DNA of 64,000 nucleotides, taken from NCBI GenBank assembly GCA_002118135.1, contig BDIU01000253.1, forward strand, positions 248,001-312,000, in the 5' to 3' direction. Positions 2,556 through 64,000 of the stretch are shown in pieces; within the stretch, counting starts at the first letter, position 1, and each line of letters starts with the position of its first letter. Made by a program: the position numbers and the translations under genes. The notes beneath the pieces were generated by a model. That model was not told where the DNA came from and ran no database searches. It worked only from the letters and a program-made list of their open reading frames with translations. Source of the stretch: Trebouxia sp. TZW2008. Taxonomy: Eukaryota; Chlorophyta; Trebouxiophyceae; Trebouxiales; Trebouxiaceae.

Positions 2556-5500
2556 TCAGTATATGCCTGAGAGCCCCTTCAGAATCATTTTGTCCAAGAT
2601 ATTGGGCCAGATATCATCAAACTTTTTGGATCTGGCGTCCTGCTGAATGACCTTCAGCACCATGTTGGACCACACATCTTCTGCAATATCTTGAATTGAA
2701 TCAGGCTGTGACTGGACCGATTGCGGCCCATCTTGAACACTACTGCCCCTTTGGACAGGAGCAACCCCCACTTTGACAATGTGTGTGCTCTGATGGTGTG
2801 TGTGCAGAGCCCTCGCCTGCAGAGGGACAGAAAAGTCTCAACTGATACAGTACAAACCTTCTGTCAGAAGGGTTCAACATCAACAGAGCAGAAACATGGG
2901 TCCTTGGATTATGACACGTGCTGACAGAAAGCCTACTAGCATAAGCATATAGCATACTACCCTAGACAATATTGCTAGCAGACCAGCAGCAATGATGCCT
3001 AGGGCGTCACATTTGTCTTTGCTGATGACTGTAGAAACACAGAATGTATGCTGCATTTGATAAGGGCCCTGGCAATGCAGCAATACATGAGCCTGCAACG
3101 CTCACCAGCTGGTTCAGTGGCTGTTTGCTGGCAGCACAGCGTGCTTCATGTAGTGCACTGAACATGCTCTGCGCTTCACTGCACTCCACGGCAGTCACAG
3201 CTTTGGTATTGAACACCTGAGCAGGAATATATTGGTGAACAGTTTATGTACATGCAGTGTGCGTTGTTGCTCTGGCAGTCAAGCCGGAAAAAAAATGTCT
3301 CTATACAAGCCATGCAACTCAGCCAATGCCGGCATGTCCGTTTGCAAACGGTGCAATCAACATATCATCTGCATGATCTATACCTTGTACTGTACTCTTG
3401 CAAAAACTTCTCTGCTTTGTGTCACAGCAGACATGGTCTGTCTCACAACAAGCATCCAAAAGTGCACTGCGGCTCCAAGAATGCAACATGCTTTTGCTCA
3501 GAACACTGTTGCGCAGTGCTGTTTTGAGCAATGTACCTGTAAGTAAGGCAAGCAGAAGCACACATATGGCCGTAGCAACACCTGCCTCAGGATAGGATTA
3601 TGTCTGATGGTCAAGTGCTGCAATCTGCTCAGAGATCCCAAGGTATCAACCTGTGCATGCATGATACTTGCTTGTCATAACTTTTTTGCTGGTGTAAACA
3701 CCATGCTAGATATGGCAAGCCAATCCTGGCCCCAAGGCTATAGCAAGACAAGTGCAAGAAGCGGTCACAAGCTCATAGGATTGCATCAGAACCTTCAAGA
3801 CATGAGTGCTGACATGCCAACGGCAAGTGAAATTTGCTAGAAATTTGCTTGGCTAAACATGGCACATTCACAAACATGTGACAGCCTGAATGCCTGCTTC
3901 AGATCTCAAGCACTTGAGGCAATTTTTTTTTGCCATTATAAGCAAGGCGAGATGTTTTGCCTCAAAAAGCAACAGCAACAGATAGAGTCAGCACAGAACC
4001 AGTGTCTTTGGGCCATCAGGAATTGCAAGATGACTCTGCACCTGATGTAGGTGAGACAGATGGTTGTCTGTGAGCACAAGCGTCTGCAAGCGCTGCAGGA
4101 TAGTCATTAGGGGCATGCCCCAGATCACTCTGTCCCAATGGACCCCTTTGAGAATGACCTCCTGCACAAAAGAAGCTCTGCTGCTTGAGACATGTGCTTC
4201 AGATTGTATCTCAGTTGGGTGCGCAAGAATGACAGGCACTTTATCGACGTCATCGCCGGAAAGGCTGCTGTGTGACGAGTGATTGACTTGACACATGCGC
4301 ATTGAAAGACACATGCTGAACAGGCATTTTACTGATATGCAATATGCTACTCAGAATGCATGCACCTCAGCAGATACACGAATGGGAGACTGCAAGGCAT
4401 CAATGGCATCCCCAGTGATGTGCAGCTGATAGCTGTCCACAAATTTTGCAGACAGTTCAGCCTAACAGGCATTTAAGTGATAGGCAACCTTTTTCAGAAG
4501 GCGTGCATCTCAGCACATGCATAAGTGTGAGACTGCAAGGCATCAATTATATCCTCAGGGAAGTGCAGCTGATAGCTGTCCACCCAAACAGCGGACAGTC
4601 TAGCCTGACAGGCATTACATTGACAGGCAATGCCATTCAGAAGGCATGCACCTGACCAGATGCACAGATACAGGACTGCGGGGCATCTCAGAAAGCATGT
4701 ACCTGAGCAGATGCACAGATGGGAGACTGCAAGGCATCAATGGCATCCCCGGTGATGTGCAGCTGGTAGCCGTCCACTAGTTCAGCAGACGGGCCAGCCT
4801 GCTGCAGCTTTGCAGGGGCAGCTGTTTGCGACTCCTCCTCTGCAGGAGGGCACAATGAGGGCAACCCCTGCAAAGGCTGCTGGCCCTGCGCTGACTGTGG
4901 CAACTCACTGACAACATCTGCCTCTGCAGCGAAGACAATACAGAGTCGCTGCAGCATAGCTTCTGTTCATAGCTCATACAGTTTGATGCTGACTCATTTT
5001 GCAGCAGTCTGCTGGCATGCAAACGCAAGACAATATCAGTGGCCGCTGAGGTACGTGCAACAGGCTTGGTTTGTCTTGAAGAGGTTGGCAAAGGAGCAAC
5101 TAATGGTATGGCAAAGTCATTTTCATGTCCTACAACTTCAGTTCAGGTCACGCCTGGTTGTAGTCTTGCAAGACTTTACCAAGCTGTGTGCATTCAGCAC
5201 CTGCATGCAAACTTTGGATGCAGTACTGCTTGCAGACAGAATGTTTTCATTCAGTACTGTTCAGTGAGTGTGCCTGCTGGTGGACTATCAGGCACAAAAC
5301 GCCTGCAGTTGAGCCATCACTTGCAAGCAGCAGGGATGCAAGTACACAACAATTTGACTTGCATCATAGTTGACAGCAAGGGTAAAGTCTTTGCACCCTT
5401 TCAGGGAGAGCCTTTTTGGGGCCTGGGTGGTTGTGCCATAAATGCTGTCAAGGGGGAGTATTACCATTGTCAACAGGTGGCGCCAAGTCACCAGGCTGCA

Positions 5501-8500
5501 AGAAAGAGTATGTCTGCTCCATTGCCGCATTCAAGACACCGGTCGCCTGCCTGCTTGCAAGCAGCTGCTCCGTTGTTGTCTGCTGCCTTGAGTCTGCAAC
5601 TGAGCTGGCTGGTTGATCAAGAACTGAGTCAGACCTGAGCACAGCATCCTCGCTCTGATGAATATCAGGCCAGGGGCTGTCAGCCCTGCTGTGCGCTTCC
5701 GGTTTGACCACTGCCCAGGTGTCACCCAATGCCTGTTGGGCCCCTGAAGCTGTGCTCCTCTGGCACACAACTGACTGCCTTGTTCCAGACGGAGAACCGT
5801 TTTCACTGCAGTCTACACCTTGAGCATCGTCCAGTGTTGGGATGGAGCCATTGGCAGTGCGGGCCTCACTAGCAGATGCAGCAGTGCTGGGTCTGTGTTG
5901 ATGCATGCTCACAGTCTTGACTGACAGCAGGGATGACGCAGGCAGGTTGCCCAGGAGATCTCCCGGTGTTGAGGGGTGCTTGATGGGGGACTGGGCTTTT
6001 CCAAACAGCCCTGCAATAGGCCAGCTGGACAACCCATGCCCTTTTGCAGAGGGCAGCCGGGCAAGCTGTGTCACCTGTTGATGACCCGCAGTGCCTGGTC
6101 TCGGAGCTGCCACTCCAGGGTCATTGGCCACAGCAGTGGACTGCTGCTCACACTCGCTGCTGACAGCACATGATAGCTGATCTGATGCCGGATGAGCTGC
6201 GTCAAGCTGGGTTTCAACAGAGTATTGAGGTGCGTCTAGTCCCTGGGCGTCTTGGGCGTCTTGACTTTTGCTAGAGGTCTGCACAATGTGCAGTGGCATG
6301 CCTCTTTGGTCGTATGAAACAGGGCCAAGCTGCTGTGGTGTTGCCTGCGCTGCGTTGCTGTGGGCTGACTCTTTTGGTGGAGGCACAGAGACTGACTTGC
6401 CGGACAAGCCCATAGGGCGTGCCTGGGCAGCAGCTGCAGCAGCTGCCGCAGCAGCAGCTAGCAGCTTGCTGTCGGAGCGCTGAAGCAGTGACAGCTGGTT
6501 GGGGTCTAAGCTGGCCAGGAGGGGTGATGGTGCTCTGTCTGTGGATGGCAGGCAACCCCTGCTGGTCAGTTCATCCTGCCACCGCATGGCTGCAGCCAAA
6601 GAGCGCTCCTCTGATGACATCTGCAGGCAGAATGCTGCTGATCAGGTGACACATCTGCACAGACTCGTGTACTGTCAGAATGTGCCTGTGGCTGTGGTTT
6701 GCCCTCTGCTGGTAGTTGTCTGGCAAGGACGGAAGACACAATTTGACACAAAATTTGTTGTTGCTTAGTGACTGCTGCCCAATGTAGTCACATGATTGAC
6801 ACTGCATTGCAGCGCTGCATAGTATCAGAGGAGTTTGTGATGGAAGGCTGGACAAGTGACTTTGCTGACTACAAGACTTAAGTAGCATCACAACATTTGC
6901 AGCAAAACAGAGCTCAGAGCAGTGTGCGCAAGCACTGTGCAATGAGCTGCACATCATGATTGGTGGATGATGAACCTGCAATCCGTTTGCATTGCAGCTG
7001 GCATTTGGCATTGGATAAGGACAGTCTGTGCCAGCAGGCATCATAGCAGCGTCTTTGGACAGAAGCAGCCTACACCCAAGCATCAGACCTTGACAGAGTT
7101 GTTTTGTAAACCAGACTGTATCTGGCATCAAGCCTCAGGAGCGTCCATTCGCAGTTTAGTGTGTACTTGACAGTCAACCTTGAGGGCATCCATATACAAT
7201 TTAGGCTGTTTGTGGTATCAGACCCTGAGAGCATCCACATCCAGTTCAGGTTCTACAAAGCATCAAACCTTGAGATTATCCATTTGCTGCAGGCTGGTAA
7301 CATGGCGTGCCAGCACCTCAATGCGGAACCTGGAGGCTGGGTGCAGGCTGCAACAGGGGTTGCCCTCCAGCCCTAGCTGAGTCAGCTGAGTCAACTGCTG
7401 CAGGGGAGTTAGGTCTTGCATGCCAGCCAGCCTGGAACCCAAAAGGCTATTACTAAGCCGCCACTCAGCACAAGTGGGTGTGTTTCTGCATGCTGGTTTC
7501 AGTGCTGCTGGTGTTGCTTGATGTTCTTGAAAACATGATGCAGTGACAGTGCAGAAACCGTCACAGAGTCCGTAAGGGTGAAAGCATGTATATACAAATG
7601 ATCAAGCAGAGAGCGACGCTCAAGTAAAGGTGTGCTGCAGGTTGTGCTCACCGCAGCAAGCCAACCTGTGCACAGCATCAATAGCACCTTAGTCGCTTGC
7701 TGTGTGCTGAAGCTATTGTCTGAGCAGCAAGCCAAATTCTGCAAAAGCAGCAAACTTCCACAAGCACCAACAACAACGTGCAGTCACCTGTTGATACCCA
7801 AATTCAGCCTGCGTAAGCTTGCTGGCATCACAGGACCATTCTGCTGTGTCTCATTGGCGTCATCTATTTGCTGTGTCTCAATCGCAGCTGTGGCCAAACT
7901 GGTCACAAAGTTGCGGCTCAGGTTGAGCTCCTCTAGGCAAGTCAAGGCACTCAAGCTGCAAAGCTGTGAGATGCGGTTGCTGGCCAGGTTGAGGCGCCTT
8001 AGGCTGGTTAGTGGTGTGAGGGTGCTGAGGTTCTCCATCAGGTTTCCATGCAGATCTAGGACCTCCAGCGACTTGAGAACCTGCACTGCACAAGGTCATG
8101 TGTGAGGGTGGCATGCTCAATCTGCAAAGCTGTGAGATGCGACTGCTGGCCAGGTTGAGGCGCCTGAGGCTTGTCAGTGCTGTGAGGCTGCTGAGGCTCT
8201 CAAACAGGTTGCCATGCAGATCCAGCACCTCCAGTGACTTCAGAACCTGCACTGCACAATGCTAGGTTCGAGGGTAGTGTGCTCAAGCTGCAAAAGTGTG
8301 AGATGCGGTCGCTAGCCAGGTTGAGGCGCTTTAGGCTGGTCAGTGCTGTGAGGCTGCTGAGGCTCTCAATCAGGTTGTGCAGATCTTGGTTCTCAAGCGA
8401 CCTGAGATCCTGCACTGCACAAGGTCATTTGTGAGGGTAGCATGCTCAAACTGGAGAGCTGTGAGATGCTTATGCTGGACAGGTTGAGGCGGCTTGGGCT

Positions 8501-11331
8501 TGTAAGTGCTAAGAGGCTGCTGAGGCACTCATACAGCTTACCTTGCAGGTGTAGCACCTCGAGCGACCTGAGAACCTGCACTGCACAAGGTCATGTGTGA
8601 AAGTAGCGTGCTCAAACAGCAAAGCTGTGAGATGCAAGTGCTGGCCAGGTTGAGGCGCCTTAGGCTGGTCAATGCTGTGAGGCTGCTGAGGCTCTCAATC
8701 AGGTCGCCGTGCAGATCTAGGACCTCGAGCGACCTGAGAACCTGCACTGCACAAGGTCATGTGTGGGGGTAGCGTGTTCAAACTGCAAAGCTGTGAGATG
8801 CGACTGCTGGCCAGATCGAGGCGCCGCAGGCTTGTCAGCGCCCTGAGGCTGCTGAGGCTCTCAAACAGATTGCCATATATGTCTAGGACCTCCAGAAATT
8901 TCAGCACCTGCACTGCACAGATATATGTGTGCATATTTAATGGCTTTCAGCACTATAGGCAAGCAGTCTCAAGGTGTGCGCATTGTCAGGTTGGCATCAA
9001 GGAGGCATTTGAAAGCATTGCAGTCAGTTGGGCAGGGCATGTAGGCAATGTGGCAGCACCATGCAGATGACTCACAATGAACTTGTAATTGAAAGAACGG
9101 TCCGTAAAGATTGACTTCTGTGAAACGACAGGTACAGCCAGGGACTCACATCCTGGTTGTCTATCTGAGTGAGGTAGTTGCGGCCAAGCATGAGGCCTCT
9201 CAGAGCTGGCGCCTTGTGCAAGCTTTGCAGGCTCTGGATGTTGTTACTGAACATGTCCAGGATTGTAAGCTGAGGCAGATGCTCCAAGCGGCTGATGCAG
9301 CGTATGCTGTTGTGCTGGTAGCTCAGCATTGTTACTTGCTCCTCGCCTGCAGCTCACAGCTGTTGAGTGGTTCATTGTTTACGTGCTTGCTTTCAATCGG
9401 TCAATAGAGATTACAGTTCAGGGCAGAGAGCCAGATGAGACTCACCAGACTTCCTCGCCTGAAAGCACAGGTGAATGGGCGGCCAAAGGTAGCTGATCAG
9501 AGTGTGCCTCAAAGACAAGGCAAATGTCCTTGTGAGCCCATGTTCAAGCTGACATAAAGCAAGGCTGCCTTAAGTTCACGGCTGTGTGTCAACAACAGAT
9601 CAGGTCTGAAACAGCAAGGTGTTCACTCAGCCAATGAAAGGCACATGCGACTCCATTTGCAGGTCTGCAGGGCCAGTGAGTAATACTGTTGAATCTCAAT
9701 GGCGTTGCTAAGCGCATTAACAGAATGCCATTTGGCAAAGTCCTGCATGTTGAGTCTGGCTTGTCATGAGCCGCAGCAGGTGTGATGGCAGCAGAAATAT
9801 GTTGCTACCAGACAAGCCCTCTTGCATTTGCATGAGCTAGGTTTGGCTGCACAGCCATCTGAAAACAGCAGTCAAGCCTTTGACACATGAATCAGTATAT
9901 GGACTGCACACCTTCCACTTGACAGCATTCACTGAGCTTGAGATGGTCCAAGTGGAGGCTGTGAGGGTTGGCCATGCGCCCAGCTAGGGTTCGGCTGACA
10001 ATGAGCACGTCCCCTCGGCGTGATTGCTTGAAAATCAGGCCATTGAAACTGGACTTGGCAGGCGGTGGCTCAGCACGGGGTGCATCATTCCTGTGTGAAA
10101 AACACTTTGCCACATCAGGGCATCTTACGTGTTACAGACGTGTCAACATCAATGAAAAGTGTTTGAAAATCAGGCTCTTTAATAATGGATTTTGGCAGGC
10201 TGTGGCCATCATTCCTGCATGATCAAGGCAGCTTTGTGATGATCCCAAGCAGCTTATTTGCTATGGACATGGCAACATAACTGTGAATGCCCAAAATGCA
10301 AGGAATAAAAAGAAAAACGGCAGAAGTTTGGCCCTTGCAATTTATGACAAGAGCCGCTGTGGGTAGAAGCAGCAAGGAAAGCACATTGTCAGACCTCTTG
10401 CAGGCCCAGAGTTTTTGCACAGCAGCAGCAGTACAATGACAAATTAGAAGTTGGTTTATGGAAGCTGATGACACCAACATGTTGAAGTTTGTGAGCAAAA
10501 TGGATGCTTTGTGCAACATTTGGCAAAGCACTTGAGCATATGTTTCCTGCACAGTCTGCACCGGTGAAAGACCTACCTGCCTCTTGAAGCAGATCTGCTA
10601 GCAGACCTGACTGCATCTGTGACTGGTTGAGGCCCAATGAATGACTGCTGACGCGGCATACTGTTGCTGCGAGAGACTGCTCTGAGGGCTTCCCTATACC
10701 TATCACTGGAGTCTTGACTAGCAGCATGGGACAAACCAGGCCTGCCTGACTGCCCAAGCTTCATGCATAAGGACAGCATGCTCAGCATGACACCATGTGC
10801 AGCTTGCTTTATTGATTTGGTGCTCAGTCAGCACACCCTGCTTGTCTGACATGCAGGACGTCAATCTTCATGCCAGCTTGAGCAAATTGCAGCATGGTCT
10901 CTTCTTACTGTGGTAGCTTGTTGTACCTTGGCTTGTGCGCTTGCAGAGTGTTGCAGCTTACGGCCATGGAAGCCATTTTCAAATGCAGGCAGCCTGCCCT
11001 GCGTCTGCTTGACTGACTGGCCGTGAACAGCAAAAGCGCTAGGCAGACTACAGCACGGATGCACATGTAAGCATGAGTCATATATGTCAGGTAATTCGGC
11101 TGTATATCAGCTCCTTTACCTCGAAAAGCCTGCTTGCAAAGCTGTTGAAGGCCGCAGAGGTGCAGAAGACCTTGCAGACGACCTTCCTTGACCATTATTC
11201 AGAGAGACCTGCTGCTCAACCTGCATATACACACATACTTTCTGTGCTGGATTTGCTGGTTAGACCGTGACCAGATTCTGCTTGCGCACCTTGGTGCCGC
11301 GCCTTGCGGGCGACTGTCCCTTTTGCTGCAT
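2556..11331 (-). CDS. LRRC49: LRRC49-like subunit of the tubulin polyglutamylase complex
   Basis: Fourteen exons join with consistent phase: 11331-11290, 11208-11120, 10998-10927, 10741-10577, 10090-9912, 9346-9150, 8080-7788, 7431-7269, 6620-5465, 4923-4703, 4161-4042, 3650-3537, 3216-3106, 2816-2556 (about 1060 residues; human LRRC49 is near 690). Residues 1-130 are disordered. The LRR domain follows, with NPHSLHLDHLKLSEC, LSYQHNSIRCISRL, LKSLEVLDLHGN, LRRLNLASNRISQL and a capping LEGNPCC. About 385 residues of Ser/Gln/Ala-rich disorder with a 12-Ala run come next (exon 9). The tail aligns in order with the LRRC49 C-terminus: VDGYQLHITGDAIDAL, SLSRLQHLTIRHNPIL, VECSEAQSMFSALHEA and WPNILDKMILKGL. 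LRRC49 (CSTPP2) acts with TTLL1 and TPGS subunits to glutamylate ciliary and centriolar microtubules. The first three exons and the start are the least certain; the rest is strong. Confidence 0.88.
4350..4703 (-). repeat. Repeated 3' end and donor of LRRC49 exon 10
   Basis: Downstream of the working exon (donor at 4703) its last 40-90 bases recur: near 4640-4680 as a short remnant, near 4515-4600 (VDSYQLHFPEDIIDAL, donor GT changed to AT), and near 4365-4445 (FVDSYQLHITGDAIDAL, donor GT kept). None has an obvious matching acceptor, so all look like donor-side fossils sitting in the intron. Confidence 0.8.
7788..8934 (-). repeat. Six-copy tandem array of the LRRC49 exon 7 acceptor and LRR-coding start
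   Basis: Six copies of a unit starting CTGCACTGCAG then coding VLKSLEVLDLHGN...LTSLRRLNLAS start at 8080, 8246, 8409, 8575, 8741 and 8907, spaced 166, 163, 166, 166 and 166 bp. Only the most downstream copy (8080-7788) runs on into the full exon with a GT donor. In the others the next copy's TGCAG follows directly and I see no donor; since 166 is not a multiple of three, read-through shifts frame. They therefore look like repeated acceptor and exon-start copies, not five extra leucine-rich repeats in the protein. Confidence 0.9.
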
Positions 11332-11812: not shown

Positions 11813-14800
11813 ATGCGAGTGCACTACAAGGTCCTGGTTCTCGGACTGTTGTTCGGACTGAACGCAAGCCTTGCAACGAACAGCTCGTCGACATGTTTAA
11901 CACCTGCCGGCACCGCCTACGTAGTCAGCCTCGGAGGTAACGTTTGCATAACAGCGGCCAAAACGCGCTTCTTCAGTAGCTTGCACGCAACCGAAGTCCC
12001 ATGATTGGCCCTCGCTGCAGATGATGTCCCACCACCGCTAAGGCTGACAGCCTCCATTGCAGCTGGGCTTGTAAATAGGCACTTCCAGGCACCCACAGTC
12101 TTTGCTTTGACTTTGCCAAATGACCAACCTTGGCTTGAGTCTGTAAAGGCAGAAGAACCCACTGTGAGCAATTGCACCTGGAAAGCAATTTCTTTGGTGG
12201 AGTTGTCGCAGCTTGCATACAATAGTGGTGAGTCTGTGGTGAGTACCAAGACCTTGTACACACACACTCCAGCACCAGCAGCAAGGTAGTTTCCATGCTG
12301 TGTCCACATATGTTGCTTACACTACTTTCGGCTGCACAGTCATGTTGTGCACATACATATCAGCCAACTGTCGTCTCACTTCGCGCAGGTGCTGCTGTGA
12401 CCACAGTTGTGTATGACCCATCAGAGTACTGGTGCTTCGCAACTGTTGTCACATTCTGCGGAGTGCACCGAGCTCTGCCTGTTACCAAAGCTCAGTTGCA
12501 AGCGCTCACGGAGCAGCAGACATCCCCACTCAGCTGTGTTGAAACTATCAAAGCCAGGCTGCAGCATTCATTCTTCAGCCTGCTGACCGGCAATGATCCA
12601 ACAGCAGCAGCTGGTGTTGATGGTGCTGCATTGCTGCTTGACTTGAAAAAACCAGGCATTGCGCTTGATGCCAGAGGCATGTGGGCAAACGACTCTGAAG
12701 CCACTAGCTGGGCGTACAAGCACCTTTTCAACCAATGCAAACAGACGCATGAAATGGTGGCAGTTCAGGTGTGATGCAGCCTTCTCATGTGCAGTCAATG
12801 CGACCAGACGCATAAAATGGTGGCAGTTCCAGTGTAATGCAGGTTTCTCATATGCACATTGCTGCCTTGTTCTGATTGGTGCCATACTGAGGTCTACTGG
12901 GCTGTGCTGTGCATTCTGGTCTGCATGCCGCTAGATGCCTTCCCTGCAGGACTGGCAAATGTGCTTCACAACAGCATTGTCAGCCTTGTGGAAAGCTGGC
13001 ATGTCAGCAACAGCAGGGATGTACTTGCTCATAGTGACAGCACCTGTCTGGCAGATTCAAGTTTGTCATCAAAATTGCCATAAACAGCACAAATGTCTTG
13101 CCATCACCCAAGCCTTGCATCATGACGTTGCAGATGGTCATGCAAGGGTGCAAAGCAACACTCTGTGCAGGTGCCTGTTTTGATGCAGCAGGCCTTGTAG
13201 GCAGACTTCACTGTGTCATGATCACAACACAAAAGTGTAGAAGTTGACGCCACCAATTGCAGCATTCCTTCTTGCAGGAGCCTGCTTCAACGCGACGGGG
13301 CTTGCTGCCAGATTTTTCTGTAGTCATGATTACATCACAAAAGTGTAGAAGTTGATGCCACACATTACAGCATTTCTTTCTGCAGGAGCCTGGTTTGATG
13401 CAGCGGGGCTTGCTGGCAGATTTCATAGTGGCCCGTCAGCTGTTTGCCCTTTGGTTGCCAGGCCTTTGCAACCCAGAGGAACCAGCTCATAAGCTGTACC
13501 AGAGCATCACTGATCAATCATGGGATGCAGGCTCCCTGCTGACAGTTGTTGGCTACTTTGCAGCTCAAGAGGTGACTGTTTCTGGCGTTACATCATGCAG
13601 GATTTGACATCAACTCTGTATATTTTAGCTTGCTACCGTGTTTACCCTTCGGTTGCCAGGCCTTTGCAACCCAGAGGAACCAGCTCATAAGCAATATCAG
13701 AGCATCGCTGATCAGGCATGGGATGCATGCTCCCTGCTGATAGTTGTTGGCTGCTTTGCAGCAGAAGAGGTGACTGATCCTGTGCTGCTTTTGCTCACAA
13801 AGCTCCCAGTGTGGTGCCTGATGGCATACACTTGACGCTTGTGTTTCCTTTCATTCAAAAGGTCCTCATGCCATGTTCTGCAGCACACAGTACAGACCCT
13901 ATCTCTTCCTGGCTTGCTGCCAAAATGCATCAGGCAAGACCCTTATCTCTGTGTTGAACAGCGCGAGTTGAAATTCACTTGCCCTCAGTGCAGTATTGCG
14001 TCAGCCCTTGCTTTTGTTTGCTTCGCTGCAGTCTGCTTTCACACCTTGTTTGACAACACGTTTGGACCAGAAAGATGTTGCAAAGCTGGAAAGACATGTT
14101 GAATATTCAGCTGTGTGGGCCCCTATTCAGCTGTGCCACGTCTGCGCCTGACAATGCAGCAGCAAGCTAGCATGCCTGCCAATCATACTGGCAACAGCAA
14201 GCACTCAGAGCTTTGTATGCAGGCAATAGCAGCCTGCAGTTGGCAACACACAGAGCTTGCACTTGTCTCAGACTGGTCTCAAGCACGCTTGATGACCTGT
14301 GCAATTGTATAGCTTGATTGTGATGTGCTGTGACCTATGTGCAGGCAATAGTAGCCTGCAGTTGGCACCATATAGAGCTTGTACTTGTCTCAGACTGGTC
14401 TCAAGCATGCTGTGTGACTTTATACAACTGAATGGCTCAATTGCAAAGTGCCATTCCCTGTGTGCAGGCGATAGCAGCCTGCAGTTGGCATCATACAGAG
14501 CTTGCACTTGTCTCAGACTGGTCTCCGAACCTGTCCTTTTGGTCTCAAATGACAGCCGCTGGTCAGATGCAACAACCTCCAACACTTCCAGTGGGCCAGT
14601 TCTCCCAGAACAAGACCTACGTTGCCTTGATTGTGAGCGATGGGGATAATCTACAGGTGATGTACTTCAATGCCTTGCTATGCACTTGCTAGCTCTTGCT
14701 ACTGTACAGACTGCTCAGAAAACTGGCACCGATTTGTTGTACACCATGCCCTCCATGACCCAGCGTCAACAGGCTGTCGCTAATGATATTGTGCCAGTAT

Positions 14801-16690: not shown

Positions 16691-17530
16691 ACTGCCTGAG
16701 TGTACTGGTAGCACTTGCTAACCGTGATCAGGCACTAGAAGTAGCTACTTGAGCTGGGGCGCCACGTGTTGCGTGCAATGATTGACTTGATTTTCAGCAT
16801 AATGCAGAGCCGTGTTGTGTTGTTTTAAACAAATTGGGACCGGCACAACCTTGACGGGCAGGTTGCAGCTGTACCTGCCGTTACACTGAATTGCGGCGAC
16901 CTTCAACATCCTGCGAGCGTTGGCCGTGGTCAACTGTTACAGTAACGGCGAGTCAGCATATGGTGCATTTGAGCTTTTTCAATTGTGCACGATCATGACA
17001 CTATGTTGTGATCATGACATGGCGTCTCTAGTGTCATCTCATTTGGACTGAAGATGCGGCTAAACAAGCAGGCTCGAGCTGAGCTCATGCATGCGAATGC
17101 TACACATCAACGAACAGCCGATGGGCTGCAGCATGATATGGTTGTGGCAGCATGCTGACACCAATTGCCACAGACACAGCCTGTTTGCGCTGTTCAATCA
17201 AGACAATGGCACACATCGGCAGCGCTGCTACGCTGCATGCTTATGATGTGATGTCCTGAGGCTTGGCAACACTGTTGCTTCTGTTCCAAACAAACAGCCA
17301 TGGCAACAAACACTCTACATGTGTTTGTGACAAATGCTGTCAATTTCTAAGCACAGCTGATATCAAGATGTGGCCGCAGCATCAGTATGCTGACAAGGAA
17401 GTGATTGCCAGAAACACAGCCTGTTTCAGCTATTCAACACAGGCAATGCGCTTCTGTACTTCAAGCATTTGGCACATACAGCATCTGTTGCAGCCCGACT
17501 GCGCTGTTTTACATGAGCAACTACACATAC
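16691..17530. other. Convergent gap with a copy of the PPI-like gene's 3' end
   Basis: Lies between two genes that point at each other. The segment around 17160-17310 (ATGTCCTGAGGCTTGGCAAC, then CACTGTTGCTTCTGTTCCAAAC) resembles 17400-17590, which covers the last codons of the proton-pump-interactor-like gene and its 3' side, offset by about 240-290 bp. This is a diverged tandem copy of the terminal exon end. I see no other gene here. Confidence 0.6.
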
Positions 17531-49219: not shown

Positions 49220-49701
49220 ATGAAGCAAGCTACTGCAGGATCAGGCTCAGCAGCAGACCCCAAGTACCCAGACACCGCTGCTGCCAATGCAGATTTGGAA
49301 GCTAGATTGACCGGAGGCGGACAGCATGGAGCAGGAGGTGGAGGAAGCTCGATGCCCAACGAGGCACAGGTCCGCTTGAGCTTGCATGCCTTCGTTGATG
49401 CGTGTGTACTGAGCTGCAGCTACGCTTTGTCTGAAGGGCACGTATGTCACGACGAAATGCCTGAGGCGCTGCAATTGTTACTCGGCTCGCTTCGGCATCA
49501 GTGTTCAAGCCTTTCAGGACCAACAAAGAAGTTCCAGTTTGCATGCTGCCTTTGCATGCCACAAGGTCACACAGGGGCTGCCATCAGCTGAAACTGTGGT
49601 GCCTGCAGAAAAACTATGCAGAGAACCAACGTCTTCAGGGCAGCAACAAGGATGGAGGACAGGTGGCGCCAGAGTCAAAGCCTGGTGCATACAACAAGTG
49701 A
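49220..49701 (+). CDS. Small hydrophilic Gly/Asn/Ala-rich protein
   Basis: Two exons, 49220-49369 and 49609-49701, join in phase 0 to give about 80 residues. The first half is Gly/Ala/Ser-rich (KYPDTAAANADLEARL, then a Gly-rich stretch, SSMPNEAQ). The second is charged and polar (KNYAENQRLQGSNKDGG ... PGAYNK). No cysteine or tryptophan, no membrane segment, high Gly content: the make-up of hydrophilin/LEA-type stress proteins, though no LEA motif is visible. It lacks the NQLNPNNP motif but sits in the same stretch as two other small disordered proteins. Coding is supported by matching splice phase and a sensible stop, not by a known family. Confidence 0.55.
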
Positions 49702-53300: not shown

Positions 53301-56300
53301 GTTGTTTCCTGTTAGATGCAAGTGCTCATCAGGAGGCGCATAGGCTTATACTTACCCTGATCTGCCCAGCACCGTACTGTACAGGTCGTGCTTCCAGGTC
53401 TGCTCCCCTGCCCCTGTCCTTCTTCTCCAGCATGTACGGCGCAATCTCTCTGAACAAGCTGATCAAAGATCTAGCTGCCGAGGCCACTGCCTTCTCTTTG
53501 TACTTCTTGTATGCAGTCAAGTCCTGCACAATACATGACACAATGAGACAAAGCTTGTAATGTCAAGGTGCAGGCAAATTCTATGCATCGTTTGTCAGTG
53601 TCTGCATCAAAGTGTGTGGCTATCTCTGAACGACTGATCAGAGACCTAGCCGCAGAAGCCACTGCATTCTCCTTGTCTTTCTTGTATGCAGGAAAGCCCT
53701 GCATAATGACGTACTACCATGAACAACATTGCACCGGGGCGCTTTGTTATGGGACACCTAATCAAGCATGAAGCTGAAGAAAGCACCAAGCAAAAGCTGG
53801 TCAGATCTGACAGAAGCAATCGCAGGTTGCTGCCTTCCAAATAGGTGACGCAAAGACAAATTGGAGCAATGGAGGCTCAGGCTCCGACCATGATTAGGAA
53901 ATGCATGTGCATCCCACATCAATGCAGTTGACCATAAAGCTGCTCCAGAACTGGTGCAAACTACTGATATCATGCAGGTTCTACGGCGCTACCAGAACAG
54001 GTCAAGGAAGCAGTATCGACAGCACAAAACATCGACTTCAGATGCTCAGCAGGAGACCAGGGCTTTGATGGTAACAAACACTGGCACAAGCATTTCAACA
54101 GCCTCTTGGATACTGAAAAGCGTTGCAAGGAGAGCGCACCAAGAGAACTTCCTGGCTCATGATGAGGGGCATGCGCATGCAGATCTCCCGCACAGTCTTT
54201 AACCCCACCGTGATCTCCTCTGGCCGAGCTCTGTCATGCACAAACTGATTGCATAGGTGCCGCACTACGGGCTGCAGCCACTCAGGGGGCACCAAGTCAT
54301 GGCAAGCCTGCAACAACATCCAGCTCACAATCAGTTGACAGTGACCTGTCATGGACACTGTGACTGGCAGCTGATGTTGCCTGAAAAAGTCACGGTGAAC
54401 AGTGGACAACAGCACTCAGGGAGCACCAAGTCATGGCAAGCCTGTTCACACTACATAGCCTGCATTTGACTGACAGCAAACACTGAGGTGAATAGAGGTG
54501 GGCAGTAATTCAGATGGTGTAAAGTTCAGCAATAGGAGGATTGCAGTAAACAGATGCTTGGCAACCAGAAGGACGGAGCCTCGGCAACAATCATAGCTAG
54601 AACGCAAAACAAAATACTTCAATGCTGAAGAGCAGATACAGTTGAGTCATCACCTGAACGGTGTGTTGACTGCTCAGTTGGACACATCTATACCTAGTTT
54701 ATGCAGGCAGGCTTGACAGCTAATGTGCCAGCTCACTTGGTCTGATGCGAACAGAACATATATGGGGCATAACGCGTTACTGCCAAGTCATGACTGAGAT
54801 GTCACTTTTCAGATGCATGATCTATGCACAAGGCATACATGCATTGTTGGCGTACCCTGATGAGTGCTGCCAAACATGTGTGACATCTCTCTGCCTAGGC
54901 TGAACCAGGTTGAGATAGGAGGCATGGTACTTCTCATTCATGAGCAGCTTACGCACACCAATGACGCAGGCTGTGACATCCCTCTGCCTGGAGCACAAGA
55001 TTCAGCACAAGGGGCTTACCATTATCAGCGCTGCCAAGACAAGTATCACACCTCTCTGTCTTGGCTGAACCACTTGGAGGTAGGGTGCACATTTGGCTCC
55101 CAGATCATGTATGACATTTGGCTATCTTGAGTATTTAGCACCACTGGCTTACCATGATGAGTGCTGCCAAGACATGCGTGACGTCTCTCTGCCTGGGCTG
55201 CACCAGATTGAGGTAGGATGCATAGTACTTCTCGTCCATGAGCAGCTTATGCACACCAATCACCCGGGCTGTCACAGTGATCATGGCCAAGCGAGTCTCC
55301 CAGGTTTCCTTCTTGTAGCGCACATTCAGCTGCGTGAACAGCTTCTCTGCAAATGTCTGCAAAACAAGGCAGGGAGCTGTGTCAATTGGATGTGGTGAGC
55401 AGCTTGACAGTATCCATTATGAATGTCATCCAGCTACATCAAGAGCTTCTCTCAGAAACGTTCGCAAGAAGGACCAATCTGTCAGCTGTTCGTCAATTGG
55501 ATTGAGGGTGTCGGGCCCAGCTTGACAGTGCCTTTCTGACATGCTAGTCAGCTACATGAACTGAGTTTCTGCAAATGCCTGTACAAAGGGATAATCTGTC
55601 AGCCAACTGTCCACTGGCAAGGCAGGCACGTGGTGTGTGCTGCGTCATTTCAATCGAACAGCTGCCAACTCACTCGGACTCTCGCTGGTGACAAGCTGAG
55701 CAGGCCAAGCACATTCATTGAGACAGCTGCATCGTCTGGTGCTGTATGTCTCTGGCCTTGAGCCTTGTGATGGCTAGTCAACATACAAGCATGAGCATGT
55801 TGATCCTCAGATCATGTTGTTCCTGGCATGCACACACGCACATGGAAACTCCACACAAATCACAATGACAATTGTCATGCTAAGACTGCTCATTCCAACA
55901 CATGCTCTAGGTGTGTGTGGCCGAAGTCCTGTCTCGCCAGGCAGGCTTGTTCTGTGCGACTTTGGAGGGATGTCTGATAACTCCATACAAATCATAGCTC
56001 ACAAATTTTAGGTCATACATCATACCTGGGGGTCATTGAGCAGCTGCACCGCAGCAAAGCTATCATGTGGGTTTGAGTTCTCCTTGCGGGCTTGCCTCTT
56101 GACAGTGGCCATCACACGCTTCAGCTTGGCTTGCTTCTTCTTCTTGCTGGACTTGGTCCCCTGCAGTTCAGCAGGGAGATGAAATGGTGAAGGCACTGTT
56201 TTTCCAAAGACGCCAGGCATTTCCAGTCTCTGCAGGTTTTGTCAACTGGCCCTAGGGTTGCGCTGAGCGTAGGCCTGTCTGATGAATGGCGCTTGTAAGT

Positions 56301-59300
56301 GCAGGCTGCAGTGACAATCGAGTATTGACAGTGCAACACAACAACGACAAGATGCGGACAAGGGGCTCTGAACAAAGGGCTCTTGAGTATCGTTGAATTC
56401 TGCCCTAATGCTGACGTAAACTTGACAGCCACTGCATGCCTTTCATACTTGTTACCCGCAGTTCAGGATGAAGCTCTGTGTTTCAGGTCAGCTTTCTCTT
56501 CATGACGAATAGAGCGTCTGCAAAAACGCTGTGATTTAGTTCGGCATGAGCTTGATTTCTTCTGTGCAAATGCAGTGCTGAGGCTGACCTTGCTGTTGGC
56601 CTTGTACATTTCAGCCTTGGTAGGCTGCACCGCCTTGATGTCTTCTTCATCATTGTCATCGTCACTGTCATCGCCAGTCACCTCATCCTGACCCAGGAAG
56701 AACTTCAAAGCTGCCACCATGATGCGGGAGTTGGAGTTGAACACAGCGCTTGCTGCAGCACGCAAACAATCAATCAGTCAGTCAACCACCTGATGACCAC
56801 CAGCTGGAGGACGCAGTAGCGGACGATGTCAAGCTATGTAGCCATGGTGCAGAAAAGCCTGTAATGACTGCAAAACAGAAGTTGTACTCCGGGATGTCAC
56901 ACACTAGTGAAAGGCAAAAGTAAGCTTGAGCAACAGACACAAAAGACAGTTCTTTTGGTTGCACATGACTAGGTCTGAACACAGCACATACTGCAGCCAC
57001 ACAGACACCATACAGACCAAGGAGTTGCATACAACCAGCATTGAACATTGCATACGACCAGCATTAGACATTGCATACAACCAGCATTGAGCATTGCATA
57101 CAGCCAGCGTTGAACACAGCACTTGCTGCAGCAGCGAACACACTGTAAACATCAATCAGTGACACATCACAAGGTGTGATGACAGCACTTGCTGCAGCAA
57201 CAGAACAGACTATACAGATTGATTCGTGGCACAGGATCAGTCTGTAGACAGGATTTGCTGCAACCACAGAGAGACTATACAGACAAAGGAGTTGCATGTG
57301 ACTGTAGTTGAACACGGCATTTGCTGCAGTACCAGACACACTATACAGACCAAGCAGCGTACATGATGGAACTTGCAATGCTGAAGAACAGTCCAAAAAC
57401 AGTCACAGCAGTTGCAAACACGCACTAGCCAGAGCTGCAATATGCACGAGCAGCGTAACATGTTGAGTGTTTGGATCAACGTGACTTTGAGCCGGTCTTT
57501 CAGTGCAGGTAAAGAAATGCACACCAGCCACAGCCGACCCAGCACTGACAAGGACTTCCAGTGTCATGGTTTGCAGTAGAAGATCACAGGTCCATGCTGG
57601 GTTTCACAATATGCTAAATAATAAAGTTGACCAGCTTTAGCCGCCCTAACTATCGTCCACACATCCCAATGACACAAGAACAGCGTCTGGTGCAATATAA
57701 GCAGCAACATGCAGGTGAGCTGGGTTGCACAAAAACAACATCTGGCGCAATAGGAGCAGCAACATGCAGGAAAGAAATGCAGGTGAACAGACTGCAGCTC
57801 ACCTATGACATTGACCGTGCGTGCATCTCGCCAGACATGACGCCTCCAAAGCTCAGTAAGGACAGCCAGCGACTTCTTGGCAGCTACGTCATTATCTGTG
57901 GCTAAGAGGCTGTACAGGAAGTTCTGAATGCTCCTGTTGAGCTGCTCATTTCGGTGCTTCTGGTTTGCTGTCTTGATGTCTGCAGCAACAGCAGGCAAAC
58001 AGTTGATGACAAGCCCAATGCACAGCCCGCAAGGGTTATTGTGACATGGATTGATGCTCATCCTGGTGCTTCTGATCTGACGAGCCTTGGCTTACATGTC
58101 TGATGCACAGCTTGCACAGGTTGGCTGCTGTCATGTGGGTGGCTGATGCAGAATTGCAGCATTTGCACAGCTGCAGATAGGCAAGGGACGTTGGACGATC
58201 ACAAGCTGGGGCACTTTACTGACACAAGTACTGCTAGTTGTTCATGCCCAGTTAAACACCTGTCAGTACCTACTGAGCTGTAAGGATGAGCAGCGTCAAT
58301 TGAGCCTCATGCAGCTTGAGCTTTGTGCATTGAAGAGTTGGTGCATGCAACCCTGATGATGCAGCTGTGCAAAGAGGTATGCTGAGATTGGCAAGCTGAC
58401 CTGCAACAATGTGCTTGAACAGCAGATCCCTGAGAGCCTTGTCTTGGCATCTGAACAGCCTGAAGAAGAGGGGCAGAACATCTGCTGACTTCAGATGACC
58501 CCGATTTCTCAGCAGAATCAAGCTTTTGACCAGGGTCTGCCGCAACGCAGAGTTCAGAACTGCGTAGTGGCTGTCCAACAAATCCATGATCTCCTGAGTA
58601 AAGCCAGCTGTCTGATCAGGGTAGCATGTGCAGACCTGAAGCAACAAGTTGCTACCTTGTCAGAACACGTTTGACAGTGTGCATAGCAAGTTGTGGATGT
58701 TTGCAGTGTTCTGAGCATGTCGCAGGAGTCAGACTGAAAGGGTAGCATGTGCAGATCTGCAGTGACAGGATGAAGCTACCTTGTCAGAGTAACATATCAA
58801 TGACAGGGTGCTTGGAGCAAGTGTGCTCAGTGTTTGCAACTTTTGGGTCGTGCTGCAATGAACTAGACAGAAGGGCATGACATGGCTCATATGGTCAAAG
58901 GCCATTATACACTAATGTCTGTTACGAACAGATGCATGATTAGGAAATGATATTCTGTATACAGAGTGCTTGCATGTGTCTGCATGCATGCACTGCCATG
59001 CTACTGCAAGCCTGCATGCACATCAACATGCAGCAGTAGGAGCCCTGCGTGCTGAGTGCTGCTAGAGTAAAGAGAGAATTTGTGCCTGAGCAATGAAAGT
59101 GACAAGTTCTGCAAACTCCTTTGAGTCCTTGCTTGGCTTGAGACTGAAAATGGCAAGACATGCTTTGTAGTGGCGCCATTGTAGCGCGAAGTCGTCTGCG
59201 TGGCCTTCGGGATCGCGCTTGATGCAGCCCTGCCAGTAGACAGCAAGTAAGTCAGTGAAGGCCGCTGAGAAAGCTTGGAAGGGTTTGCAGGTGCGGCAGT

Positions 59301-59872: not shown

Positions 59873-62800
59873 ATGCGCACGGTGGCTATGCCCGGCATCA
59901 CCGCGTGTTTGCTTCACCTGCAACCTGCCAGACCAACATGGAAATTGCAGCACCTGCACAAGGCTGCATCACAGGTGTTCGCCAGGCGTCTCAAGTTCTC
60001 ATAACTCCCTACAAATCTAGAGAGCTATTGTACATATGTTGCTCTGACTGCGTGCAGGCCAGTAATGCCTATGCTTGCCTCAGAACCAATGCTCGCCTTC
60101 AGCACAAGCGCACTTTGCACTCAAGGTATACAAAACCATCTCAGCCAATGGTTCTTCACTGTGAAAAGCAACCTGAGTACTGACAGGAATTGTAAATTTT
60201 GGCCATGCCCTTGAGCAGGCAGCAGCAGACAAGATCAGTAGCTGCAGCAGCATCTGAAGTTGTAAACAGCCAGCAGAAGACACAGAATAAAACTGCATTG
60301 CAGCTTCAGCTGTTCAACACACTAGGCAGGCAGAAACAGGCCTTCCACCCACGGCAAGGGCAAGGGCAGAATGTCAGTATGTATGTGTGTGGTGTCACAG
60401 TGTATGATTGGTAAGAACTGCAGCACTTGCTTGACAAGCTTGATGAGCGACCGCATGCCATGAATTTGAGTGCATGTCATGTTATGACAAAGCATATGAC
60501 AGTAAATGACTGTATTAAGCAATGCATGACCAGTGTGCTTTTCAATCTTCTGCAACAAATGACTGCAACTATGACTGACTACAAACATTTTGTCAGTAAC
60601 TGTAAGTCACTATAGATGGCTGTGGATGATTGTTCTGTTGCTGCGTGCAGGGCTCACATTGGGCATGCCCGGGTGTATGTGTCCTTTGACGTTCTGCTCA
60701 GATACTTGAAGCGTCTGGGGTACAATGTGCAGTACGTGCGCAACTTCACAGGTATGCAGGCAATCTGCCATGTTCTAATACAACAGACAACTAGAACGCA
60801 GGCCCGCACCAGCTTGCTTCACATGATGTGCATGCTGACCATTTCAATGCACCACTTGTATGTCCTTGCAGGCAGCTGTCTGTCATGCTATCATCCAGTC
60901 ATGAGCTTTTGTTGTCTTCTGCAAATTACTAAGTGTTTAAAGCAATGGCTGAGAAGAGGTGGAAGATTTTTGATGCTGCTTGTTCAGTGTCACAGTAAAT
61001 GAGTATTCAGCAGACAGTCTGCCACATGCTCTATGGTAGCCTGTCTGCCATCTAAGCAACTCATTGACCGGCTTGTAGCACAAGTTGGAAGGGTTTTCTC
61101 ACGTGCTCATGAGGCGCGTGAGCTAGTGAGCCTGATTGCCTGTTGTGGCTGCAGACATTGACGACAAGATCATTGCTCGCGCTCAGCAGTCTAATGAGGA
61201 TCCACTCAGCTTGAGTCGCAGGTACGTTTTGTAAAGCAAACTTGACCGTGCGTGTTGCATGTCTGGAACATGAGCAAGCCCTGCATGCAAGGCACATGCT
61301 TGCTGCTTGTACATTCACAGATGCTCACCAGCCAACACAGCAACGCAGTGCATCGCTGGGTGCTTACACTATTTAGACACATGCTTGTCCATCTGTGAGC
61401 GCCCAAAGCTGAATGTAGTGAAGTATAAAGCGTTACATGCAGGTCCATCCTAGTTCAGAATGCGTGCAGCTGTTTGGGTTCTGACACATGTACCTTTTCA
61501 TTGTATAAGTACAGTATCACAGGGATGTCTGCCTCCTGATTTAATAGCAACAGTCCATTTCACTGTCTCACAACTGGTTGATTATTCTATCATTTGCCAT
61601 GCAGGTTCATCGTAGAGTATCACAAGGATATGGAAGCCCTAGGGTGTCTGCCTCCTGCCATAGAGCCAAAAGCTACAGACCACGTCTCAGACATGGTGAT
61701 GACCATTGAGCAGATCATCTCCAATGGACATGGCTATGCTGTGGATGGAGATGTCTTTTTCGATGTTGCAAGCTTGCCAGGCTATGGCAGACTGTCTGGC
61801 CGTGCTCAGGTATTGCTTGTGCCAATGTGTTGTAGCCAGACTAAATGTGTCAACACAAGTACTAGGGTTGCGTGGCCTTAGGCCTTGCCAGGCCAAGCTG
61901 ACTTGATTCGTCACCTTGTTGAGATGATGTCCGACCATGCACAGCTGCAGCCCCCTTGGGTGTGCTTGCTGCTTGATTGCGGCCTTGTGCATGTGCTTGC
62001 TGTCTGTGTCACTCTTGCAAGGTATACTTACTCTGATCTGTTGCTCGCCATCAAGTATCGTGAAGGACACATGCTGTTTCTGTTTTTGCTTCAGGATGAC
62101 AACAGGGCAGGTGAGGACTTGCACTTGACGCCGGCAAGCGCAAGCCCTCAATCTTTGCACTACAGAAGTCAGCCAAGGCAAGGGGCCCAACCTGACAGAG
62201 CCCCTGGGGGCCAATAGTCATCACCATATAGTGACTAGTCTGGAATCTGCCTTACCTGACTCAAAGTGTCATGTCACAGGAGGACAACAGGGCAGGTGAA
62301 AGAGTCGCGCTGGATGCCCGCAAACGCAATCCCTCAGACTTTGCACTGTGGAAGTCAGCCAAGGCAGGGGAACCCACCTGGAATAGCCCTTGGGGTCCAG
62401 GGCGGCCTGGCTGGCACATTGAGTGCAGTGCCATGATACGCAACCTTATGGGCCCTGTTATAGACATACATGGTGGTGGATTTGACCTGGTATGCCACTA
62501 CTGCCTTGTGACACAGCTTCTTGAAAATGGTCAGTGCAGAGCCACCATACGTAGCCTTGTGGGCTCTGTCGCTGACAACTTTCCCCTGAGAATTTGACCT
62601 GATACAATCCGAGATTGATGTCCTGTGACAGAGCTCCTTGGGCACATGTAGCATTGAATGCAGCGTCATGATACGCGACACAACGGGGCCAGTCATTGAT
62701 ATACATGGCGTCAGCTTTGACCTGGTGTGCCATTGGAATTGTTTTATACAGCTTGATTGACAGCATATGACATCAGCATCGGGTTCAACCGATACGTCAA

Positions 62801-64000
62801 GTGCAGTGCAATGATACGCAGCCTCGTGGGCCCTGCCGTTGGCCTCCATGGCAGAGGCTTTGAACTGATATGACAGTGAAGTCTTTTAATACAGCTTGTC
62901 TGGCAGCTTGTTTGACACTCACACTACGCTTTGCACGGCCAAAGACATAGAAAGCTTTTGCTTCCATGACTACATGGTCACCCTGTCAATTCAAGGTCTG
63001 CAAGTGACCTGAAGTGCCAGAGATTGTGCTCGACTGCAAGGTCGCCTTTGCAGAATTTTTCGCACCATGGGAATGAGATTGCACAGAGCCAGGCACATGT
63101 CTGTGATGAGATTGCCAGCGGATGACCATTAACCGCCCAAACTTTATTTGATGCTGGCTGTGATTGTCACGGACTCACTGGAGTACGCCTTTGTCAGGCA
63201 ATGCTCAAATGCAAGGTGCTGTCTTGCGCAGATCTTCCCACATCATGAGAATGAGATTGCGCAGAGCCAGGCATGTGCTTGCGATAATGACCGCCAGCAG
63301 ATGGCCAACAACGGTACAGACTTTGTGCGCTTCTGGATGCATAATGGCTTTGTCAATGGTAAGCACTAGCTTTGTCAAGATCATTGTATGGATCAACTCA
63401 ACCTGCAACAGCATATCGTCTTTGATCTTGTGAATTGTGAGCAGCACTTTTGTGAATAGAGGGTACCCTGGGTCATTGACTTGCATCTTTGAAGGTGCTG
63501 CTGTTCTTTGGCACATGGCCTGTTGACAGCTGTGACATGTCAAGTTGCACGCCTTTGTTTTGCAACTCAAACAGCACATGACCGAAGTCGCCTACCATCA
63601 CTCATACTTTGGAGCATGGGCCTATACTGCACCAAATAGCTTTGGACAGATCTGTTTGCATGTTGCGGGGACAGGCAGCAATCAAGCATTGTGAAGCTGC
63701 CATAAGCAAGTTGCTGTGCTGGCCTTGCATAATGAGGCAGTTGCTTTACGGCTTCTGTATGCACCTAGCAGGGTCATGGAAACTCATTAGCAAGCATGTG
63801 TATGATGATGACGCTGATGACATGTGCCGCTGCAGTGGACAGTGAAAAGATGTTAAAGAGCCTGGCCAACTTCTTGACCGCCAGAGACCACTGGTGCTGT
63901 GCCTGCTTGATGCCGTGCACACTCAATGATCACGCACATCCTGAAGTGCAAATGTTGCTGTTGCAGTGGATAGTGAGAAGATGTCTAAGAGCTTGGGCAA
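59873..64000 (+). CDS. CARS: Cysteinyl-tRNA synthetase, N-terminal two thirds (continues past window)
   Basis: Partial. Exons in phase: 59873-59974, 60058-60125, 60219-60410, 60651-60751, 61155-61221, 61605-61809, 62280-62489, 63232-63358, 63967-64000 and on. About 368 residues are visible. The first ~90 residues are Arg/Gln/Ala-rich with few acids, like an organelle transit peptide. The class I core follows: [23 protein letters not shown] (zinc Cys), AHIGHARVY (HIGH motif), [78 protein letters not shown] (zinc Cys), [18 protein letters not shown] (zinc His/Glu), WMHNGFVN and [11 protein letters not shown] (KMSKS). It charges tRNA-Cys with cysteine. A plastid and/or mitochondrial form is likely from the N-terminus and its bacterial-type core. 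Confidence 0.94.
62090..62400 (+). repeat. Second copy of CysRS exon 7 acceptor and start
   Basis: CAG|GATGACAACAGGGCAGGTG at 62095 copies the working start CAG|GAGGACAACAGGGCAGGTG at 62280, spacing 185 bp, and matches for about 115 bases. Small deletions break the copy's frame. Confidence 0.88.
62420..62875 (+). repeat. Four-copy donor-side array of CysRS exon 7
   Basis: The end of exon 7 ([26 protein letters not shown] at 62489) recurs with ends near 62601, 62724 and 62867 (spacing 112, 123, 143). The 62724 copy keeps a GT donor; the other two have AT. Zinc-ligand Cys codons persist in one copy only. Confidence 0.85.
63030..63290 (+). repeat. Second copy of CysRS exon 8 start
   Basis: The block coding [13 protein letters not shown] (from 63232) has a copy near 63055-63115 in which CAT CAT GAG becomes CAC CAT GGG, so the zinc-ligand region is altered; spacing is about 170 bp. 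Confidence 0.8.
63825..64000 (+). repeat. Two copies of the KMSKS-coding exon start (CysRS)
   Basis: TGCAG|TGGACAGTGAAAAG at 63836 codes [13 protein letters not shown], and 131 bp later TGCAG|TGGATAGTGAGAAG at 63967 codes [11 protein letters not shown]. Both can follow exon 8 in phase. The catalytic Ser of KMSKS is Leu in the first copy, so the second is taken as the working exon. Confidence 0.88.

Follow-up and report, generated by a model that had tools for sequence, protein, structure and literature searches.

Short tandem duplications over single splice boundaries in Trebouxia sp. TZW2008, within a wider habit of local duplication

The stretch of DNA analysed here, which we call the window, comprises 64,000 nucleotides of the green lichen alga Trebouxia sp. 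TZW2008 (GenBank assembly GCA_002118135.1, contig BDIU01000253.1, positions 248001-312000) and belongs to a draft assembly of 68.5 Mb in 527 contigs. It holds genes for an LRRC49-like protein, a GxGYxYP protein, a PPI-like protein, IFT80, a BPG2-like GTPase, SDA1 and the synthetase CysRS. In these genes, short segments that span one exon-intron boundary, or splice edge, are repeated in tandem, and the extra copies, each a partial exon with its splice site, lie in the introns. The window was chosen because of this feature and is thus non-random. For comparison, a sample of 18 stretches of 10 kb (180 kb) was taken from 16 other contigs and from the two flanks of the window; window and sample together make up 244 kb.

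Gene models were built with a small purpose-written gene finder and a spliced protein aligner. Trebouxia proteins (P0001, P0121 and P0241) served to place the exons of SDA1 (15 pieces), IFT80 (15 pieces) and GxGYxYP, while the splice edges of the LRRC49, PPI and BPG2 models are ab initio predictions; the names LRRC49, PPI-like and BPG2 are presumptive labels, in part those of the initial annotation of the window. The CysRS model matches synthetases in the PDB over residues 34-304 of 306, and Pfam matches were obtained for GxGYxYP, LRR, GTPase and PEPCK domains; a Pfam search with the PPI-like protein gave no match. Five Trebouxia proteins share 62-65% identity with the SDA1 query over 92-99% of its length, and two further ones 72% and 80% over 74% and 65%; identity to proteins of Myrmecia, Chlorella ohadii, Coccomyxa and Elliptochloris is 51-57% over 63-71%, which places the alga in the Trebouxia lineage. 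The intron consensus (48 introns, five genes) is AG|GTRAG at the donor and TGCAG|G at the acceptor. The only one of these introns with a donor other than GT, apparently GC, follows SDA1 exon 59086-59229. Exons in the sample are gene-finder predictions; on its own training window the gene finder called 160 edges and recovered 112 of the 148 curated ones.

Arrays were defined as grouped local direct repeats from self-BLAST, searched at offsets of 25-1200 bp. Tandem Repeats Finder returned 25 rows for the window and self-BLAST 53 near pairs; a looser self-BLAST (E<=0.01) gave 29 arrays, 28 of which exceed the 45-bit cut used for array counts. Dinucleotide-preserving shuffles of the 244 kb, a control proposed in the initial annotation, contained no array in each of three runs, against 95 in the real sequence. 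Within an array, the copies follow one another head-to-tail at one locus with constant spacing, as local tandem duplication demands, and copy pairs in the window are 65-97% identical. The arrays are tied to splice edges: in 20 of the 28 window arrays a modelled internal edge falls within the best copy pair, whereas circular shifts give a mean of 10.2 (standard deviation (sd) 2.5, p<=0.0005); in the curated genes alone, 20 of 24 arrays lie on an edge versus 12.1 expected (sd 2.3). Seen from the edges, 21 of the 132 modelled ones lie inside a repeated segment (13/66 acceptors and 8/66 donors), edge 21780 being included only through a 4-bp tolerance. Exactly one splice edge, in one copy, is found in 46 of the 51 edge arrays of window and sample.

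The initial annotation had put the number of edge arrays in the window at about 15 to 20, and the count bears this out. Each of the 15 edges that it listed (10 acceptor, 5 donor) has an array of the right gene and type, if PPI exons 7 and 10 are taken as the edges 21961 and 18411, and CysRS exon 7 as the exon 62280-62489. Edges beyond that list are the donor of GxGYxYP exon 4, the PPI donors at 18220 and 19685 and acceptor at 19290, the acceptor of SDA1 exon 3 and the CysRS acceptor at 63232. The statement that the arrays duplicate single boundaries holds for most of them and fails for some, which lie wholly within introns, and for the PPI-like array at 21783-22490, which repeats nearly a whole exon. 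The eight window arrays without a counted edge comprise the LRRC49 array at 4319-4800, which is of donor type but stands at the last modelled exon, one array at a coding end, four intron-only arrays (starting at 19976, 22670, 24629 and 56929) and two outside the curated models (at 47394 and 63825). Coordinates are collected in Table 1.

Table 1. Arrays in the window by gene (positions in the window; ex, exon)
Feature	Position	Strand	Remark
LRRC49-like donor-type array at exon 4703-4923	4319..4800	-	exon part 84/98
LRRC49-like acceptor-type array, about 6 units of 166 bp, transcript-upstream of exon 7788-8080	7950..8919	-	
GxGYxYP ex3 donor duplicated, edge 12768	12733..12856	+	protein-based exon
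GxGYxYP ex4 acceptor array, edge 13386	13166..13425	+	protein-based exon
GxGYxYP ex4 donor duplicated, edge 13571	13441..13782	+	protein-based exon
GxGYxYP ex5 acceptor array, 3 copies, edge 14468	14214..14525	+	protein-based exon
PPI-like coding-sequence end (17531), copy 290 bp away	17236..17598	-	
PPI-like donor-type copy, edge 18220, copy without GT	18107..18268	-	ab initio edge
PPI-like acceptor array, edge 18411	18320..18702	-	ab initio edge
PPI-like acceptor-type copy, edge 19290	19202..19451	-	ab initio edge
PPI-like donor-type copy, edge 19685	19566..19743	-	ab initio edge
PPI-like intron-only array, period about 260	19976..20974	.	
PPI-like acceptor array with 179/181 bp of exon 21781-21961	21783..22490	-	ab initio edge
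PPI-like old intron-only array, 65-78% identity	24629..25302	.	
IFT80 ex6 acceptor duplicated, edge 28415	28227..28459	+	edge used by same-species transcript
IFT80 ex11 donor array, period 166, edge 30433	30315..30773	+	protein-based exon
BPG2-like GTPase ex5 acceptor array, edge 35869	35764..36375	-	ab initio edge
SDA1 ex9 acceptor copy, edge 53523	53447..53707	-	protein-based exon
SDA1 ex8 acceptor copy, edge 54307	54279..54444	-	protein-based exon
SDA1 ex7 donor array, edge 55153	54848..55276	-	protein-based exon
SDA1 intron array with 23-bp minisatellite	56736..57357	-	weak pair (43.7 bits, below cut) reaches ex5 acceptor 56752
SDA1 ex3 acceptor copy, edge 58635	58618..58788	-	protein-based exon
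CysRS exon 62280-62489, upstream acceptor copy	62092..62399	+	
CysRS exon 62280-62489, downstream donor copies	62417..62897	+	
CysRS exon 63232-63358, upstream acceptor copy	63027..63324	+	

Some further features of the window stand apart from these arrays. Minisatellites lie within introns at 22680-22777 (35-bp unit) and 57025-57116 (23-bp unit). The SDA1 exon 52336-52897 carries short in-exon repeats in an acidic stretch rich in Ser, Asp, Glu and Ala, unlike the half-exon arrays. The gene model at 44160-49701, which the array at 47394-47586 overlaps, is weakly supported, and a partial gene with a cyclic-nucleotide-binding domain (Pfam PF00027) occupies 335-1768 on the minus strand.

The habit of duplication is genome-wide and the window is not special in this respect. 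The sample contains 67 arrays in 180 kb (372 per Mb; 0 to 8 per 10-kb stretch), and a rough extrapolation from the 244 kb, which include the non-random window, gives about 27,000 arrays in 68.5 Mb. Per 10 kb, the sample has 3.87 arrays within predicted genes and 3.48 elsewhere, compared with 5.27 and 2.17 in the window, where two of the four arrays scored as elsewhere belong to gene ends. Long or clustered arrays occur outside predicted genes in the stretches L017 (2-1775) and L014 (798-5268), and the habit is thus wider than exon edges. The edge tie nevertheless extends, in weaker form, to the sample: 30 of 66 arrays (one was dropped for an offset above 700 bp) touch a predicted edge versus 20.9 expected (sd 3.4, p<=0.012), as do 19 of the 38 arrays of at least 80% identity (10.7 expected). 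To call this a boundary-duplication habit, as the initial annotation did, is too narrow for what appears to be general local duplication, although a tie to edges beyond random shifts stands; equal intergenic density without such a tie had been named as the outcome that would speak against it, and in the sample the densities are nearly equal but the tie remains.

The duplicated units are of similar size at edges and outside genes. The smallest offset is 50-225 bp in 88 of the 95 arrays, and the median best-pair offset in the sample is 182 bp at edges (n=23), 141 in introns (n=9) and 176.5 outside genes (n=32). The search admitted offsets of up to 1200 bp, so the upper limit is genuine, whereas detection accounts in part for the lower one. 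A unit of this size may recall nucleosomes or Okazaki fragments.

The initial annotation had also described a one-sided layout, with acceptor copies upstream of the working exon and donor copies downstream. This layout is present, but it follows from geometry: when a tandem duplication spans one edge, the spare half-exon must end up in the intron, upstream for an acceptor and downstream for a donor. Extra copies lie on the predicted side for 24 of 24 acceptor and 10 of 12 donor copies in the window, and for 38 of 45 and 20 of 27 in the sample. Several of the sample exceptions (L002, L007, L017 and L018) reflect exon calls on both copies by the gene finder; those in L004, L009 and L012 are not explained in this way.

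The extra copies show decay of their reading frames and many amino-acid differences. In the alignments of 38 copies (in which the rows for GxGYxYP exon 3 and PPI exon 9, offset 134, have ragged exon ends that inflate indel counts, and those for SDA1 exon 5 and PEPCK exon 8 are weak), identity is 82% in the exon part (3035/3701 aligned positions) and 77% in the intron part (2509/3241). Median divergence in the window is 0.156 for the exon part and 0.210 for the intron part, and 15 of 21 copies follow this order (p 0.006); the sample values are 0.175 and 0.236, with the exon part lower in 28 of 38 (p 0.00015). The ratio of nonsynonymous to synonymous differences (N:S) between copies is 365:287 over the 38 copies (1.27), where unconstrained mutation gives 2.87 to 1; by our own arithmetic about 1.4-1.6 is expected when constraint acts on only one of the two copies, and the observed value is slightly lower. 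In-frame stops occur in 10 of the 38 aligned copies and frameshifts in others, and with this N:S no coding constraint was found in the spare copies. Introns with edge arrays are longer than the others (median 664 bp, n=15, versus 335 bp, n=51; p 6e-5), a length to which the arrays themselves contribute. Many alignments stop just beyond the splice signal, as would be expected if only the working signal were held by selection, and at IFT80 exon 11 a decayed intron part is still visible. Decay together with constraint on the working signal may explain most array ends near the site, with the exception of GxGYxYP exon 5. True breakpoints at the splice site were considered as the origin of these ends and rejected, as the intron-side end falls within 12 bp of an edge in only 14 of the 92 copies of window and sample, the others being spread.

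The spare splice sites score close to the working ones. The median acceptor score is 6.43 for spare and 6.66 for working sites; in 11 of 24 cases the spare acceptor equals or exceeds the working one, and the working acceptors are slightly higher overall (p 0.04). All 24 window acceptor copies retain CAG, and in the sample position -3 is kept in 33 of 42, -2 in 41 of 43 and -1 in 39 of 44; in the BPG2 copy at offset 317, AG is absent within 4 bp of the simple offset and a gapped alignment places one. Spare donors keep GT in 8 of 10 window copies and 13 of 15 aligned sample copies, as expected. In 37 copies, 34 spare sites could be located close to where they were expected, and not one would extend its exon in frame without meeting a stop, although by our own arithmetic zero is also about the chance expectation at lengths of around 200 nucleotides. 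Transcript evidence comes from P0191 (362 amino acids; 'lgn' match), which matches 32% of the IFT80 query at 99% identity. Because six IFT80 introns are absent from it, we take it to derive from spliced RNA of this or a very closely related species. It uses the exon-proximal acceptor of IFT80 exon 6 at 28415 and skips the extra copy, which is one transcript at one array. At its other end, P0191 runs from IFT80 exon 29783-29895 into the next intron (region 29783-29961), either by intron retention or as an alternative end.

We consider it probable that frequent local tandem duplication, mostly of 50-225 bp and filtered by selection, explains these arrays best. We propose that the nuclear genome tandemly duplicates short segments often, inside and outside genes, and that duplications within an exon or over a whole exon would mostly be purged. 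A duplication over a single edge would be tolerated, since the exon-proximal site would still yield a correct mRNA, and the spare half-exon with its splice site would lie in the intron and decay. The working exon being under selection, old duplications would stay visible longest over their exon part, and repeated rounds, probably with unequal exchange between copies, could produce up to six copies and longer introns. This agrees with the explanation in the initial annotation, that recurrent local duplication with a breakpoint inside an exon is tolerated because an intact exon remains: the exons of the three homology-checked genes (SDA1, IFT80 and GxGYxYP) are complete without the copies, the transcript skips the exon 6 copy and a quarter or so of the copies carry stops. 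The chemistry of duplication and the disregard of spare sites by the cell, the latter from the single transcript, are what we infer. The boundary pattern is largely geometry and selection acting on a dense, genome-wide phenomenon of a known kind, with an excess at edges that is unexplained.

That excess and some details of the copies weigh against this explanation. Random duplications of the observed sizes yield 43% single-edge events among those that leave the coding sequence intact; in a simulation with mutation, exon constraint and BLAST detection added (2400 events on the window gene models, with assumed rates), edge arrays make up 46-49% depending on the age range, and 54% at >=80% identity. 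Within genes, the observed share is 20/24 (window) and 23/32 (sample); from the total of 67 sample arrays, the latter count leaves out 32 that lie outside predicted exon chains and three inside exons. The window excess has a p of 0.0006 (against 49%) to 0.003 (against 54%) and the sample excess of 0.008 to 0.03, a residual of about 1.3- to 1.8-fold over the simulation. Arrays of at least 85% identity, which look young, are also tied to edges (7 of 9 in the window with 3.1 expected, 7 of 13 in the sample with 3.3 expected). The farthest copy of GxGYxYP exon 5 is 95% identical in its exon part, and yet the similarity ends 9 bp into the intron, so decay alone is insufficient there. Finally, AG is kept in 24 of 24 spare acceptors in the window (about 76% expected) and in 31 of 36 aligned ones in the sample (about 73% expected), with p of 0.001 and 0.048 on copies that are not independent; this is only suggestive of retention by selection.

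A more far-reaching reading would be that edges are preferred by duplication of nucleosome- or Okazaki-fragment-sized segments and that spare acceptors are partly kept by selection, so that thousands of genes would carry ladders of decoy splice sites of nearly equal strength. We regard this combination as unlikely; if true, it would offer a natural experiment on how the spliceosome chooses the exon-proximal site. The first half may also be put by itself: exon edges would be true duplication hot spots, for instance through breaks or template switches at nucleosome-bound exon ends or splice motifs. The excess over a model of selection and detection loss, in the window and in independent stretches alike, its presence among the most similar arrays and the fact that some arrays end 3-9 bp from the splice site although their exon parts are 80-95% identical all favour such hot spots, which are disfavoured by the nearly equal density outside predicted genes and by the spread of array ends on the intron side. 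On balance hot spots seem unlikely to us, and we claim none, because the simulation rates were assumed, the sample exons come from an imperfect gene finder and the window was picked for the feature.

The retained AG dinucleotides and the high scores of many spare acceptors raise another possibility, that the sites are kept for use as alternative acceptors, decoys or poison sites tuning expression. We think this improbable, as the acceptor signal is weaker in the independent sample, the donors look neutral, the N:S ratio is free of coding constraint, the only transcript uses the proximal acceptor and working acceptors score slightly higher. An origin of the arrays as relics of intron birth by duplication of exonic AGGT (the Rogers model) shares with our data the tandem duplication of coding DNA, but it needs the donor edge in one copy to be aligned with the acceptor edge in the other; among the window pairs examined (at most four per array) none carries an edge in each of its two copies, and intron sequence forms part of many units, which makes it very improbable. 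An assembly artefact, conceivable in a draft of 527 contigs, is equally hard to credit with copies that differ by 3-35% and arrays that differ in period and edge. In a genome search, two regions that together hold four of the arrays were each found only at their own position, which speaks against an artefact and led us to reject second loci or alleles as a source.

Frequent local duplication of this kind has practical consequences. About one in six splice edges in these genes lies in a repeated segment, and many spare acceptors score no lower than the working one, which makes the genome, with decoy sites that splicing must ignore, a test bed for splice-site choice among near-equal competitors. 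The arrays also suggest a route of intron lengthening. In addition, they are a warning for annotation, as our gene finder called half-exon copies as exons (30510-30599, 13629-13769 and 54856-54983, judged against the spliced protein alignment).

In the incomplete library searched, no published report of half-exon arrays at such density was found. The genome paper of Chlorella NC64A reportedly remarks on exon pieces repeated in introns ('repeated half-exons'); if so, it would be the closest precedent, and a relative may already be known to share the habit. The term 'half-exon' is absent from the searched text of the Coccomyxa genome paper (PMC3446292). Two Trebouxia genome papers give a repeat content of 12.7% (PMC12712428) and 9-16% (PMC11523091), and a term search of their available text found no mention of tandem repeats or exons, and of introns only one, in a reference of PMC12712428. 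In plants, and above all in the green algae Chlamydomonas and Volvox, tandem repeats within introns are enriched close to the junctions with exons (PMC3887541); the motifs named there are micro- or minisatellites, half-exon copies were not seen in the part available and Trebouxia is not among its two algae. Some Drosophila introns apparently arose from tandem duplication of proto-splice sites (PMC2891723). As in our arrays, coding sequence with splice-like sites was duplicated and one copy is spliced out, but that model needs an exonic proto-splice site, whereas here existing splice sites are copied. Short intragenic duplications with exon and intron sequence, as cited in PMC4974935 and PMC3488318, are similar; those accounts stress whole introns and intron creation, while single edges dominate here. 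Single cases of boundary duplication are already published, and it is their density that is unreported in the literature found. In the RdRp gene of potato, a single tandem duplication over an intron-exon boundary made a new intron (PMC4974935). There, as here, duplication over one boundary supplied a second splice site; however, the potato example is one case in which a cryptic donor of the copy made the new intron, whereas the 244 kb analysed here hold dozens of arrays, and the copies in the three genes checked by homology sit within introns that were already there.

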